A DNA stretch of 64,000 bases from Gammaproteobacteria bacterium (lineage in GTDB: Bacteria; Pseudomonadota; Gammaproteobacteria; Acidiferrobacterales; SPGG2), in contig JAOTYM010000003.1 of NCBI GenBank assembly GCA_029861845.1, positions 1 through 64,000 of the forward strand, read 5' to 3'. Positions 50,859 through 56,215 of this stretch are shown here, in pieces (position 1 is the first letter of the stretch; every line of letters starts with the position of its first letter). The position numbers were made by a program, and so were the translations under genes. The notes beneath the pieces were generated by a model, which was given only the letters and a program-made list of their open reading frames with translations, did not search any database and was not told the origin of the DNA.

Positions 50859-51506
50859 ATGTGGGTAAGGGCGATTGCCGCGTCGGCAGTTCTACTAACC
50901 GCGATAGTTTGGTCGAATGTAGGTTGGACGCGCGATTTCTTATCCAAGCTAGAAGAAGGCGTTGCTCGTGAAATTAATTTAGCAAGAACCGATCCTGGTC
51001 AGTACGCCTCTTTTCTTGAGGAATGGAGTCAATACTACAACGATAAGGAAATCGAACGTGCCGGCCAACCAACAATCATTACTCAAGAAGGGGTTTCGGC
51101 GGTAAAGGAAGCGATTCGATACCTACGTGTGGCCAGTTCCTTGCCTTTACTTAAGATCTCAATCGGCATGTCGTTGGCTGCCAAAGACCATGTCAAAGAA
51201 CTCGGTCCAGCCGGGAAATTGGGACACAAGGGGTTGACTAGCAGTTGGCCCACAGATCGCGTAAGTCGTTACGGGAAGTGGAAGGAGGCCTTAGGAGAGG
51301 CCATTTACTATGGTCGAGACGATGCGCGGGAAGTAGTGATGGCGCTAATCATTGACGACGGTGTGCCTAGCCGTGGTCATCGACATCACATCTTCGATCC
51401 CGCTTTTCGCATTGTGGGCGTCGCTTGTGGTCCCCACGCGACCTATGAATCAATGTGTGTAATTACCTTCGCGGGCAGCTATATAGAGCGCACCCAGGGA
51501 CAGTAA
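50859..51506 (+). CDS. CAP/SCP-domain secreted protein
   Basis: GVAREINLARTDPGQYASFL...LKISIGMSLAAKDHVKELGPAGKLGHKG...GHRHHIFDPAFRIVGVACG. Confidence 0.82.
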   Translation: MWVRAIAASAVLLTAIVWSNVGWTRDFLSKLEEGVAREINLARTDPGQYASFLEEWSQYYNDKEIERAGQPTIITQEGVSAVKEAIRYLRVASSLPLLKISIGMSLAAKDHVKELGPAGKLGHKGLTSSWPTDRVSRYGKWKEALGEAIYYGRDDAREVVMALIIDDGVPSRGHRHHIFDPAFRIVGVACGPHATYESMCVITFAGSYIERTQGQ

Positions 51507-51709
51507 GGGTTAATAGTGCTCGTCTGGGTATCGGGCTGAGCGCTAGATTTAGTTGCTCAAAGAGTGGCGTAAGCGACGTTTTTCGGGTTCGATCTAACCT
51601 GGCTCACCCTTTAAGTATTTGTTTGTTAAAGATTTTTCCTATACCCCGACACTCTGTGGCATGCGAATTGCAGCCATACCAAGACACTGACCGAAAGGGT
51701 GCCTTAGTG

Positions 51710-52525
51710 ATGAAAAACGTTCTCAAGCGGGATGGAACCAGTCTGGAACGACCCGGCGCCGTCGATGATCTCTACAGCGACGCTTCGTCGCCGACGTTGA
51801 TTAAGCCGCTGCCCGACAAGGCGGAAACGATAGAAACAGTCGTGCCCATGAGCCGGCGGCTACGGGCGCTGTTCGAAAGGATGCGTAATCCGGGGCACGA
51901 TCCTTACCGCTACCTTCTGATGCTGCGATTCGTGCTTCTCAATTTAGTGGCTTTTGCGCTCTTAGGCGTCGCTTATGTTCATGGCCTTGTCGATATGGTC
52001 GTCGCCGCCGATCGCACGTACTTGTCTGTGATTATTGGTTTCGTGTTCTTGTTGGGGCTTGGCCTTTGCGGGCGCAAGGTCTGGCAAACGAGCCAAGAGC
52101 TTAATCGGGTGCGGCGACCCGGTATGGTGGCTCGATCCAGCGTCGTGCGAGATCTGGAGCGATTGCGCACACGCGACCCGGAAGGTCGCGGAAATCTCAT
52201 CGGTGCTTTGCGCTTGACGCTTTCGCATCGCATCTCGATTGTGCGCCACATTGCTAACAGTCTGGTACTGCTCGGGCTTATCGGTACCGTGCTCGGTTTT
52301 ATCATCGCGCTGTCTGGTGTCGATGCAGAGCGTGCCTCAGACATCAACGCGATCACACCGATGATCTCTACCTTGATAAGTGGCATGTCGACGGCGCTTT
52401 ATACAACGTTGGTGGGCGCCATCCTGAACGTATGGCTCATGGCCAACCATCAGCTGTTGGCAAGCGGTACGGTTAAACTAATCGCCTCGCTAATGGAATC
52501 GGCGGACACGCATGCGCGAAATTGA
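51710..52525 (+). CDS. MotA/TolQ/ExbB proton-channel family protein
   Basis: SLVLLGLIGTVLGFIIALSGVD...ITPMISTLISGMSTALYTTLVGAILNVWLMAN; start placed at ATG 51710. Confidence 0.82.
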   Translation: MKNVLKRDGTSLERPGAVDDLYSDASSPTLIKPLPDKAETIETVVPMSRRLRALFERMRNPGHDPYRYLLMLRFVLLNLVAFALLGVAYVHGLVDMVVAADRTYLSVIIGFVFLLGLGLCGRKVWQTSQELNRVRRPGMVARSSVVRDLERLRTRDPEGRGNLIGALRLTLSHRISIVRHIANSLVLLGLIGTVLGFIIALSGVDAERASDINAITPMISTLISGMSTALYTTLVGAILNVWLMANHQLLASGTVKLIASLMESADTHARN

Positions 52526-53117
52526 TTTCTTTGATGATGAGAGTGGCGCTACCGTATTTCGCGACGTCATCATGTTAGCGTTGGCCGGATTCGTCATGCT
52601 GGTGTTGCTGTTGCTACCTCATATAAATCCTCGGGCAACCCAACAAGATCCGGCCCCTACTCCAGGCAATGTAATGGTCGAGCTTCGTTGGCCGGATGAG
52701 TTGAACGCCGACGTTGACCTCTGGGTGCAGGCGCCAGGCGATGCACCAGTTGGCTATTCAAATCAGGGCAGCGCCATCTTTAATCTGTTGCGCGATGACC
52801 TCGGCCACATTAACGACGTCACCGAGCTCAATTACGAGATGTCGTACAGTCGCGGTGTGCCGGCGGGAGAATATACGGTCAATCTTCATCTCTACAGAAA
52901 TCTGGCCAACGTCTATCCAATTCCGGCTATCGTGGCGGTAAGCGTGAAGAATTCACCAAGTATGCCCGCTGAGCAAATCCTGTCGACCAAACTTGATATG
53001 TCCCATGAAGATGAAGAGCTCACGGCCTTTAGATTCAAGCTTGATAAAGAAGGGCGTCTAGTAAGTGGTAGTGTCCACAATCTGCCGCAGCCGTTACGGG
53101 CAGCAGCGAGGCGATGA
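52512..53117 (+). CDS. Single-TM protein with C-terminal periplasmic beta domain (YfaP/DUF2135-like by eye)
   Basis: N-terminal TM VIMLALAGFVMLVLLLLPHINP in the ExbD position; VMVELRWPDELNADVDLWVQAPGDAPVGYSNQGS. Confidence 0.55.
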   Translation: MREIDFFDDESGATVFRDVIMLALAGFVMLVLLLLPHINPRATQQDPAPTPGNVMVELRWPDELNADVDLWVQAPGDAPVGYSNQGSAIFNLLRDDLGHINDVTELNYEMSYSRGVPAGEYTVNLHLYRNLANVYPIPAIVAVSVKNSPSMPAEQILSTKLDMSHEDEELTAFRFKLDKEGRLVSGSVHNLPQPLRAAARR

Positions 53118-53617
53118 ACTACGTTTTCTATCTATTTGTCGTGTCGGTGGGACTGATAACGGCGCTTGCTGCGATCAGCATCTGGTCCCCACGCCCACTC
53201 TGGGTGAAAGTCGGCGCATTGACGATAGCCGCTCTGCTTTTGCCTGCTGCTTATGTCAGTTTGGTAGAGTTGTTGAGCCGCCCAAAGCCGATCGCGCTCG
53301 AATGGGGGCACGGTGATCTATCCGAGGCGGTGGTATTACATGCTGACTGGCGAGAGGGTGAGAGCATTTACCTGTGGCTCAGGGTTCCCGGGATTGATGA
53401 TCCGCGTGCATACGTGCTTCCTTGGGATCAAAAACAGGCCGAACAGCTGTTTGCCGCTCAGCGGGAGGCGGAGTCACGGCGGACCGAAGTGCATGTTGAA
53501 CGTCCCTTTGGTCGTGGCGAGGAGGAGAGTCAGCAACCAGTGTTTTATGCTGTACCGCAGCCAGCCCCACCACCCAAGGTGAGGCCGGTCAACAATACCT
53601 TCATCTACCAACCGTGA
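53114..53617 (+). CDS. Two-TM protein of unknown function
   Basis: ATGA overlap with preceding gene; two N-terminal TM segments, soluble domain, Pro-rich C-terminus. Confidence 0.6.
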   Translation: MNYVFYLFVVSVGLITALAAISIWSPRPLWVKVGALTIAALLLPAAYVSLVELLSRPKPIALEWGHGDLSEAVVLHADWREGESIYLWLRVPGIDDPRAYVLPWDQKQAEQLFAAQREAESRRTEVHVERPFGRGEEESQQPVFYAVPQPAPPPKVRPVNNTFIYQP

Positions 53618-53650
53618 TGTCGCCGGGCCGACCAGCCCGAATAAAATAGA

Positions 53651-55717
53651 TTAGGACTGGATGTGCGTCAGAGACTTGACCGGGTTTTCTGGAACCAGAG
53701 GTTTACCGCAGGCGTCTCGATAGTGCGTACTAAAGAAGTTGTACATAGTCCGCAGGCAACGCATGGCCCGGTTAGCATAGGCTTTGCCATGTTCCTGGCA
53801 GAGATCCTGGTGGCGTTCAGTGACCATGTCTTCCGAAATCTCTAACAGCGTCTTTTTCTGCCAGTCCGCAAAACACGCTTCCATCATCTGTTTGTAGTTG
53901 TCAATCGTGCGGGCCTTGAGGCCCCTACGAGCCTGCAGAAATTCGTTGAACGCACCCCTTAGCGTATTCACCGCAGTATGGTCCTGCGGTTGTGGTTCAA
54001 ACTCGATCGTATAGGAGTTCAGTTCTGCCTCGGCGTTTTCGGTGTTCGTGTCCATATCAGGTGCGGCATCGCCGTTGGCGCGCTCTTGCTCTGCAAACTC
54101 CAACATAATTTCCTCTTGTGCGGCACCCGCATCGTCGGTCAGCCCATTGAGTTGACAATCATTTGCTTCAAGGGCTTGCCACAGCTCACTACTAGGCCCA
54201 TCCAGCACTTCGCGCAGCTCTTCGGCTAGCGCGTTGAATGCTAGCAGGTCGCCCTTTTGGTGGTAAGTTTGCAGCAGTTTGAGCTTCAATTCTTGGCGCG
54301 CCGGATCCGCGACAAGCGCTTCTTTCAATGTTGTCTCGGCGTGATCGTAGCTACCGGCGGACAGATAAACATCCGCTTCGGCGATCGGATCTAACGCCTC
54401 TGACGAGACGGTTGCGATGCCGCCATCGAGGATCTCGCTGCGACGACGGGATAACCCGCTGCGTCTGTCGGCGGCAACCGGAATGGATCTTTTCCGACGG
54501 TCGCTGTTGGCGCGCCTACCTTGCCGGCGACGATGCGCGTCAGCACGTCTACTACCGTTACCGTCGGTGTGAGTTTCATCTTCTGACGCATTTGTTGACA
54601 CGGCGACCTTAGGAGCGGGCGCTCTTTTTTGGGATTGAAGCGTGATGTTGTGCCGGCGGAGATCGACGACGAGAACGACAAGCCCACCTGCGATAAGCAC
54701 GAATCCACCTATCAAGATAGCAACCAACCCTAATACCCACCGTGGGTGTTCACGTATGAACGCGGTTGCCACGTTTAGCATCCCTTGTACCTTTGGGGCA
54801 GCCGCCAGAGGGGCTTGCTGCGCCCGTCTTGTCTGTTGCATAGTGCCCGCCTTAGCCTCAGGAGCTACTGCTCGTGCCTCATCCCTCGATATCTGGGGCT
54901 GAGCCTGTACTAACGGTGGCTGTGTTTTGGCAGTCATTTGTTCTGCGACTCGGTGCATGGTCTCGGTTTCGACCGGCGGGTTTACAACTTCGGTACTGTC
55001 CCCGAGTTCGTCGAGTTTATTCGATGATGTGGCTGTGCTTTGCTCGGTCGTGGTCACTGGGCTGTCTTGTCCACGTGGCGCTATCTCAACGAGAACGCGC
55101 GGCGGGGACAAAACTGCCGGCGCCGAAGTTGGTTCGGGTGCCGCGGCGCCTGGTTGTTGTGCAGCAGCGAAGGGTTGTTCAGGTTGGGGTATAAATTCGG
55201 GTTTGAGCTCGTCAACTCCGGTCGACACTTTTTGCTGCCCCTTAGCTGCATTCGTCACCGTGTTGGCGGGATCGACAAGCGCCGAGAAATCGTGGACCAG
55301 GTATCCTCCCGACCACACCGCATGTAACGTGAACTGCAAGATGGGCTCGCTAAGCGATTCTTCCGAACCGAGTCGTAGAGCATAGTGGCCGTCCGCTCGT
55401 TTCGCGACGGTAACTTTGATCTCGGGTTGGTTTTCGAGTTCGGCGGCACCAAAGTGGGCCAGGGGCGCGACGCTGGGGAGCAGGCTCTCGATCTCGTCTT
55501 CAGTGATGGAGAGCAATTCGATCTCGGCCTCGAGCGGTGCGTGCAAGCGGGAATAGACAAAAAGTTTCCCCACCTCGAGGGCGTGGGCAACAGTGGGCAT
55601 GAGCACCATCATGGTGCCGATCACCAGAGCCTTCAGCGCTCGCTGGATCCCGCTCTTCTGTCGGTGCATGTTCTGGTCCTGCCTTTGCCCGTGTTTCCGA
55701 CCCACATGGGCATCCAT
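53651..55717 (-). CDS. FimV/HubP-like protein with C-terminal tyrosine-recombinase core-binding (SAM-like) domain
   Basis: FimV N-terminal LEVGKLFVYSRLHAPLEAEIELLSI; TM WVLGLVAILIGGFVLIAGGLVVLVV; FimV TPR ADVYLSAGSYDHAETTLKEALVADPARQELKLKLLQTYHQKGD; C-terminal LRGAFNEFLQARRGLKARTIDNYKQMMEACFADW...ANRAMRCLRTMYNFF...ENPVKSL; start may be ATG 55669. Confidence 0.82.
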   Translation of the reverse strand: MDAHVGRKHGQRQDQNMHRQKSGIQRALKALVIGTMMVLMPTVAHALEVGKLFVYSRLHAPLEAEIELLSITEDEIESLLPSVAPLAHFGAAELENQPEIKVTVAKRADGHYALRLGSEESLSEPILQFTLHAVWSGGYLVHDFSALVDPANTVTNAAKGQQKVSTGVDELKPEFIPQPEQPFAAAQQPGAAAPEPTSAPAVLSPPRVLVEIAPRGQDSPVTTTEQSTATSSNKLDELGDSTEVVNPPVETETMHRVAEQMTAKTQPPLVQAQPQISRDEARAVAPEAKAGTMQQTRRAQQAPLAAAPKVQGMLNVATAFIREHPRWVLGLVAILIGGFVLIAGGLVVLVVDLRRHNITLQSQKRAPAPKVAVSTNASEDETHTDGNGSRRADAHRRRQGRRANSDRRKRSIPVAADRRSGLSRRRSEILDGGIATVSSEALDPIAEADVYLSAGSYDHAETTLKEALVADPARQELKLKLLQTYHQKGDLLAFNALAEELREVLDGPSSELWQALEANDCQLNGLTDDAGAAQEEIMLEFAEQERANGDAAPDMDTNTENAEAELNSYTIEFEPQPQDHTAVNTLRGAFNEFLQARRGLKARTIDNYKQMMEACFADWQKKTLLEISEDMVTERHQDLCQEHGKAYANRAMRCLRTMYNFFSTHYRDACGKPLVPENPVKSLTHIQS

Positions 55718-55869
55718 TGCCGCGGGAGGCCGTATCAGCCCTTTTTTGCGGGTGCGACCACTGCCGTCCGTATGACCGCTGACATATAAAAAGCGTTACT
55801 TTTTAGGTACTTGCCTAACAGTCCGCGATTAGGCGGCCGCAACCGGCGAATATGGGTTGCAAGTACTGT

Positions 55870-56215
55870 GCCGCCCCCGCGAGTCCTGGGGGGCATAAAC
55901 CCCGGCGATTCGTGGGGTGGCCAAACGGGTCGATGGGTCTTCTAATGCCGCATCCACCAGCGCCAGAATGCTAGCCGGTAGGACGACCCCCCCATGCCCA
56001 CGCTGGTGATGTCGGCACCGAAGATTTTTCCGCCATCGGTGATCGGTGTCATGTCGCCATAGCCGACGGTGGTCAAGGATGCCGCGCCCCGCCACATCGT
56101 GGCCGGTATACGGCCGAACGCCTCGGGCTGTGCATGGTGTTCGAAGAGATAAATGACGCTTGCAGCCAAAATGAGAAATGACAAACAAAATAAAAAGGGC
56201 AGCGCAGAAAGAATG
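55870..56215 (-). pseudogene. Voltage-gated K+ channel remnant
   Basis: LSFLILAASVIYLFEHHAQPEAFGRIPATMWRGAASLTTVGYGDMTPITDGGKIFGADITSVGMGG, then frameshift to VVLPASILALVDAALEDPSTR; upstream frame closed by TAA. Confidence 0.7.

Follow-up and report, generated by a model that had tools for sequence, protein, structure and literature searches.

A FimV/HubP-family gene joined in frame to an integrase core-binding domain at the margin of a genus-specific block

Layout of the fused gene and its surroundings

We analyzed a stretch of 64,000 nucleotides from a gammaproteobacterial contig (the window), in which the minus strand holds one uninterrupted frame of 688 codons between positions 53651 and 55717. 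The probable start is residue 17, at position 55669, as M17-H18 lines up with the starts of two paralogues in an alignment. Residues 17-46 (55580-55669, minus strand) form a signal peptide (...VLMPTVAHA/LEVG), which is followed at residues 47-150 (55268-55579, minus strand) by the FimV_N Ig-like domain PF25800, with a Pfam E-value of 4.4e-20 and a score of 72 bits against a cut-off of 27. A low-complexity stretch then leads to a single transmembrane helix recognized by hydropathy (residues ~329-352; 54662-54733, minus strand) and an Arg/Lys-rich segment. The positive charges after the helix suggest that the tail of the protein lies on the cytoplasmic side, and the FimV_N domain would be periplasmic. 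An Arg-rich motif right after the helix, DRR..xRRxxFIPVxxxRRxxxRR (54430-54530, minus strand), is common to the short FimV paralogues of the family (L028, L027 and L030). Further along, residues ~446-505 (54203-54382, minus strand) make up a FimV-type TPR module. Its Pfam TPR matches are under the cut-off, it is 37-45% identical to the TPRs of FimV-family proteins, and its helices are modeled by AlphaFold2 (AF2) with pLDDT values above 90. The original prediction of one 688-aa frame with a FimV N-terminal domain, a single transmembrane helix and a FimV TPR is thus borne out.

The TPR is followed by a short acidic region, residues 511-583, that has 19 Asp or Glu residues vs one Lys or Arg and includes a disordered linker at residues ~551-577 (53987-54067, minus strand; AF2 pLDDT below 50). 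The remainder of the frame is an integrase-type tail. In the AF2 model of residues 425-688 the TPR and this tail appear as two confident units, and the linker between them is partly disordered. The codon-position GC pattern is unbroken across the fusion junction, and a crude scan found no promoter-like site for the gene.

The FimV C-terminal domain TIGR03504 has no match in the fused protein, whereas it matches a short FimV paralogue of the same genome (G000:C146; L028 6829-9006) with an E-value of 1.6e-11 and 44 bits. Thus, the integrase-type domain occupies the place where the FimV domain would be expected. There is also no periplasmic LysM among the Pfam matches of the fused protein up to an E-value of 1, and Pfam revealed none in the short paralogue either. 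This paralogue resembles the fused protein, at 26% identity, in its FimV_N domain, transmembrane helix, Arg-rich DRR...RRR segment and TPR; it differs in ending in the FimV C-terminal domain with no integrase part. It is matched in 4/4 family genomes, and its match in G003 (L029, G003:C180) has an in-frame TAG stop.

The upstream neighbor of the fused gene is a remnant of a K+ channel gene (kch; Ion_trans_2, Pfam E-value 2.5e-8) at 55829-56188 on the minus strand, which has lost its N-terminus and is frameshifted after the selectivity filter. A genus-specific block of ~8 kb extends from 53651 to ~61500, between a conserved operon (51455-53617, plus strand) and a conserved D,D-peptidase-like gene, and other genera carry different genes in its place. 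The operon contains three genes, the first coding for a MotA/TolQ-like membrane protein (assigned by eye) and the next two for proteins of 201 and 167 aa that match no Pfam family above cut-off. Several uncultured proteobacteria have it in their genomes (L073-L079), and G000:C150 holds a relative of the 167-aa gene. The integrase-type domain sits at the left edge of the genus-specific block, as an island integrase would, and no tRNA genes as attachment sites are found within the window. The original prediction had not seen the broken kch neighbor, the absent FimV C-terminal domain or the relic in a sister species that is described below.

An integrase core-binding domain without its partners

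The tail had been assigned to the core-binding domain (CBD) of tyrosine integrases, an assignment that our comparisons uphold and refine to a start at residue 585, position 53965, giving a domain of 104 aa (residues 585-688; 53654-53965, minus strand). When the tail alone was compared with the Phage_int_SAM family that had been put forward for it, Phage_int_SAM_1 was matched weakly, with an E-value of 0.0011 that is below the Pfam cut-off; the much stronger tblastn matches are to complete integrases, along the full length of the tail and with a best E-value of 1.9e-27 at 47% identity. These integrases occur in the same order (L017-L020 and L024) and at 27 further places in the class, and one of them, L017, has Arm-DNA-bind_3, CBD and Phage_integrase domains by Pfam. 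The homology spans from the first conserved CBD residue to the hinge before the catalytic domain. All 14 of 14 invariant or near-invariant CBD positions are kept, as scored on a 28-row alignment in which the window sequence is itself one row. The tail departs from the consensus in places, with the K of ITKD changed to E and a conserved G changed to C. Its net charge of +4 is inside the range of true CBDs.

Structure prediction gave the same assignment. Specifically, AF2 models the tail as a CBD fold with pLDDT above 90, and the first 27 PDB matches of this model by Foldseek are all tyrosine-recombinase domains, led by lambda integrase and integrase CBD fragments at a probability of 1.0; the best E-values are only 0.03-0.2, the domain being so small. 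A sequence search of the PDB with the single tail returned no match, and a search with a tail profile gave only a marginal one, to the CBD of lambda integrase (2oxo, E-value 0.06). Together these results support the tail being a complete CBD of an Arm-CBD-catalytic tyrosine integrase that is predicted to be folded.

The original prediction was also correct in that no catalytic domain accompanies the CBD. Neither Pfam nor a remnant search revealed a catalytic domain, with its catalytic pentad and tyrosine nucleophile, in the frame or in the whole window, and the same is true for an Arm remnant. The stop codon of the fused gene lies just 33 bases from the end of the convergent gene at 53114-53617. 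Elsewhere in the same genome no related domain was found at an E-value of 1e-3.

Occurrence, sister-species locus and constraint

The fusion is a singleton so far, with one intact copy known. Recurrence of the FimV and core-binding architecture, which the original prediction had raised, was not observed: tail searches of genomes from the order (57), the class (369) and the phylum (399) gave no second such fusion, and every other tail match sits in a frame no longer than 501 aa, the size of an integrase or less. The FimV part, compared with 274 class genomes at an E-value of 1e-25 or lower, has matches in its own genome only, and the whole fused protein has no relative among genome contigs. The tail has no match among viral contigs, and plasmids and phages returned ordinary integrases only, at 30-45%. 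The neighboring operon is present in two other genera of the family (G002 and G003) and in four further genomes, and neither fimV nor an integrase is found beside it in any of these. A literature search returned no paper in which FimV/HubP is combined with such a core-binding domain of an integrase.

A sister species, G001 (LXTK01000004.1, MAG SPGG2), has the same locus as the window. Specifically, window positions 52233-53625 align with positions 19-1411 of the G001 locus (L026) at 90%, part of the CBD (53724-53916, minus strand) survives there as a relic (L026 1422-1614, 90.7% DNA identity), and the segment upstream of the fused gene (55769-55873) directly abuts this relic (L026 1615-1721, 71% identity). 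G001 therefore lacks 53917-55768, which contains fimV and the start of the CBD, as well as 98 bases around the CBD end, and keeps only a 63-codon scrap of the CBD on the same strand and beside the same convergent gene. Because the join is internal to the CBD, whose missing residues are present in the window copy, a 1852-bp deletion in G001 is the best and simplest reading of its junction. Such a deletion would mean that the fusion, or at least the adjacency of fimV and the CBD, predates the split of the two species, and the fusion is thus probably older than the split and lost in G001. Homologues with the fusion absent and the tail decaying had been named beforehand as evidence against the original prediction; G001 carries a CBD relic and has lost fimV.

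The G001 locus also bears on a misassembly that joined two genes in a fragmented genome. The genome is in 275 contigs and has an estimated contamination of 4.2%, which would be in keeping with such an error, but G001 carries the CBD piece in the same position and orientation, flanked on one side by the same convergent gene and on the other by the stretch found upstream of fimV in the window, and the window junction has no long repeat and is crossed by a continuous codon-position GC pattern. A misassembly is thus highly improbable.

We next consider constraint on the gene, for which the dS of flanking genes between the window species and G001 served as a yardstick, that is to say one species pair with a molecular clock between them. 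Three flanking genes have a dS of 0.36-0.48 and a dN of 0.04-0.05 between the two species, and a fourth is faster; the neutral divergence is ~0.18-0.24 per lineage. The 63 homologous tail codons exhibit 18 nucleotide differences, vs an expected 54-67 under neutrality in both lineages (p≤1.1e-10) and 30-39 under neutrality in just one (p≤0.007), so that the tail has diverged at about 1/3 of the neutral rate. In the adjacent non-coding DNA, 29/105 aligned positions differ, vs 18/189 in the tail (Fisher p 1e-4). Most of the change is on the G001 side, with an amino-acid tree giving a G001 branch of 0.165 vs 0.016 for the window branch. In a codon model with time taken from the flanks, the tail omega is 0.14-0.20 in the window and 0.32-0.44 in G001, and omega=1 is rejected for the window tail under this calibration (p from 4e-4 to 5e-6). 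Without flank calibration neutrality of the tail is not rejected by its omega (p=0.2), since its synonymous sites have diverged little as well; a single value common to both lineages is 0.59. Regarding the FimV part, 11-14 stops would be expected had it been neutral since the split, and 0 are present. As judged from these sequence comparisons, there is moderate evidence of constraint, which favors the gene having been kept by selection, tail included.

This constraint is silent on which gene the tail served. The genus ancestor might have had an intact integrase at this site, with the fimV fusion being recent and confined to the window lineage; part of the tail constraint, and even most of it, would then be that of the integrase, and the relic does lie at the left edge of the genus-specific block where an integrase is expected. 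Such a history would nonetheless require the two lineages to have lost the catalytic domain separately and with almost the same end point, given that homology of the convergent-gene flank ends at ~53625 in both, and it would also require fimV to have inserted where G001 has its junction. We regard it as improbable.

A more serious contender is chance read-through, in which a deletion removed the 3' end of a fimV copy, whose frame now continues into an integrase relic, so that the tail is functionless ballast and the whole gene is perhaps on its way out. The decayed surroundings with the kch frameshift, the loss of the gene in G001, the failure of the tail searches in order, class and phylum samples to find a second case, and the shared tail omega with its uncalibrated failure to reject neutrality all are congruent with this explanation. 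It is countered by the tail and FimV frames both being open despite the neutral divergence of each lineage, by the slow divergence of the tail, and by retention of its predicted fold and of all invariant residues. Overall, we rank such a chance fusion as nearly as likely as the capture that we propose below.

Proposed origin and relation to known proteins

Our tentative preference, at a probability of about 0.45, is that a FimV/HubP-family gene captured the CBD of an integrase relic at the edge of the genus-specific block, creating a membrane-anchored and possibly DNA-binding cytoplasmic tail. Under this capture scenario, a FimV/HubP-family paralogue would have come in frame with a relic of an Arm-CBD-catalytic integrase and lost its own C-terminal FimV domain, and of the integrase only the CBD would have been kept as a new cytoplasmic tail. 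The product would be a single-pass inner-membrane protein with a periplasmic FimV_N domain, a cytoplasmic TPR and a CBD on an acidic flexible linker. It is presumed that the protein is made and that it localizes like FimV/HubP. The CBD might bind DNA, weakly or non-specifically given that there is no Arm or catalytic domain, and clustering of many CBD copies at a single membrane focus could add avidity. The fused protein may in this manner recruit to the membrane either DNA or a partner that is bound to DNA. Our analysis bears out the architecture of the original prediction and a CBD that is predicted to fold and is probably constrained; the tethering of DNA to the pole or membrane that it put forward would be one possible use of such a tail. 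A bolder version, in which the CBD of a mobile-element integrase is domesticated as a cytoplasmic FimV/HubP tail and holds DNA itself at the membrane or pole, with no ParA/ParB intermediary, seems unlikely to us.

The fused protein can be compared with the FimV/HubP polar landmark proteins, such as P. putida FimV and the HubP proteins of Shewanella and Vibrio (PMC12918733). Like these it has a signal peptide, a FimV_N Ig-like domain, a single transmembrane helix, an acidic cytoplasmic part and a FimV-type TPR; unlike these it has no detected LysM and carries the integrase CBD in place of the TIGR03504 domain. Deletion of the FimV domain from P. putida FimV or S. putrefaciens HubP has little effect on swimming (PMC12918733), and therefore a FimV protein that lacks this domain can partly work. 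Vibrio HubP is thought to hold ParA1, and via ParA1 oriC1, at the pole (PMC9140986); it thus reaches the chromosome via ParA1 rather than through a built-in DNA-binding domain such as the fused protein might use. Recombinases divide the work between a CB domain, which binds the recombination site, and a CAT domain, which carries out the chemistry (PMC8138268). The fused protein shares with P4-type integrases that have Arm-DNA-bind_3, CBD and catalytic domains (L017, L018 and L046-L054) the 104-aa CBD, at ~40-47% identity among the closest, and the same predicted fold. It differs from them in being joined to a membrane protein and in having neither the Arm nor the catalytic domain, and hence recombinase activity is impossible.

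A FimV/HubP-type protein naturally equipped with a DNA-binding tail would allow the tethering of DNA to the pole or membrane to be tested directly, and it would exemplify a recombinase domain put to new use in the absence of its catalytic half. Should the tail be ballast instead, the locus still illustrates how gene fusions form at island edges.
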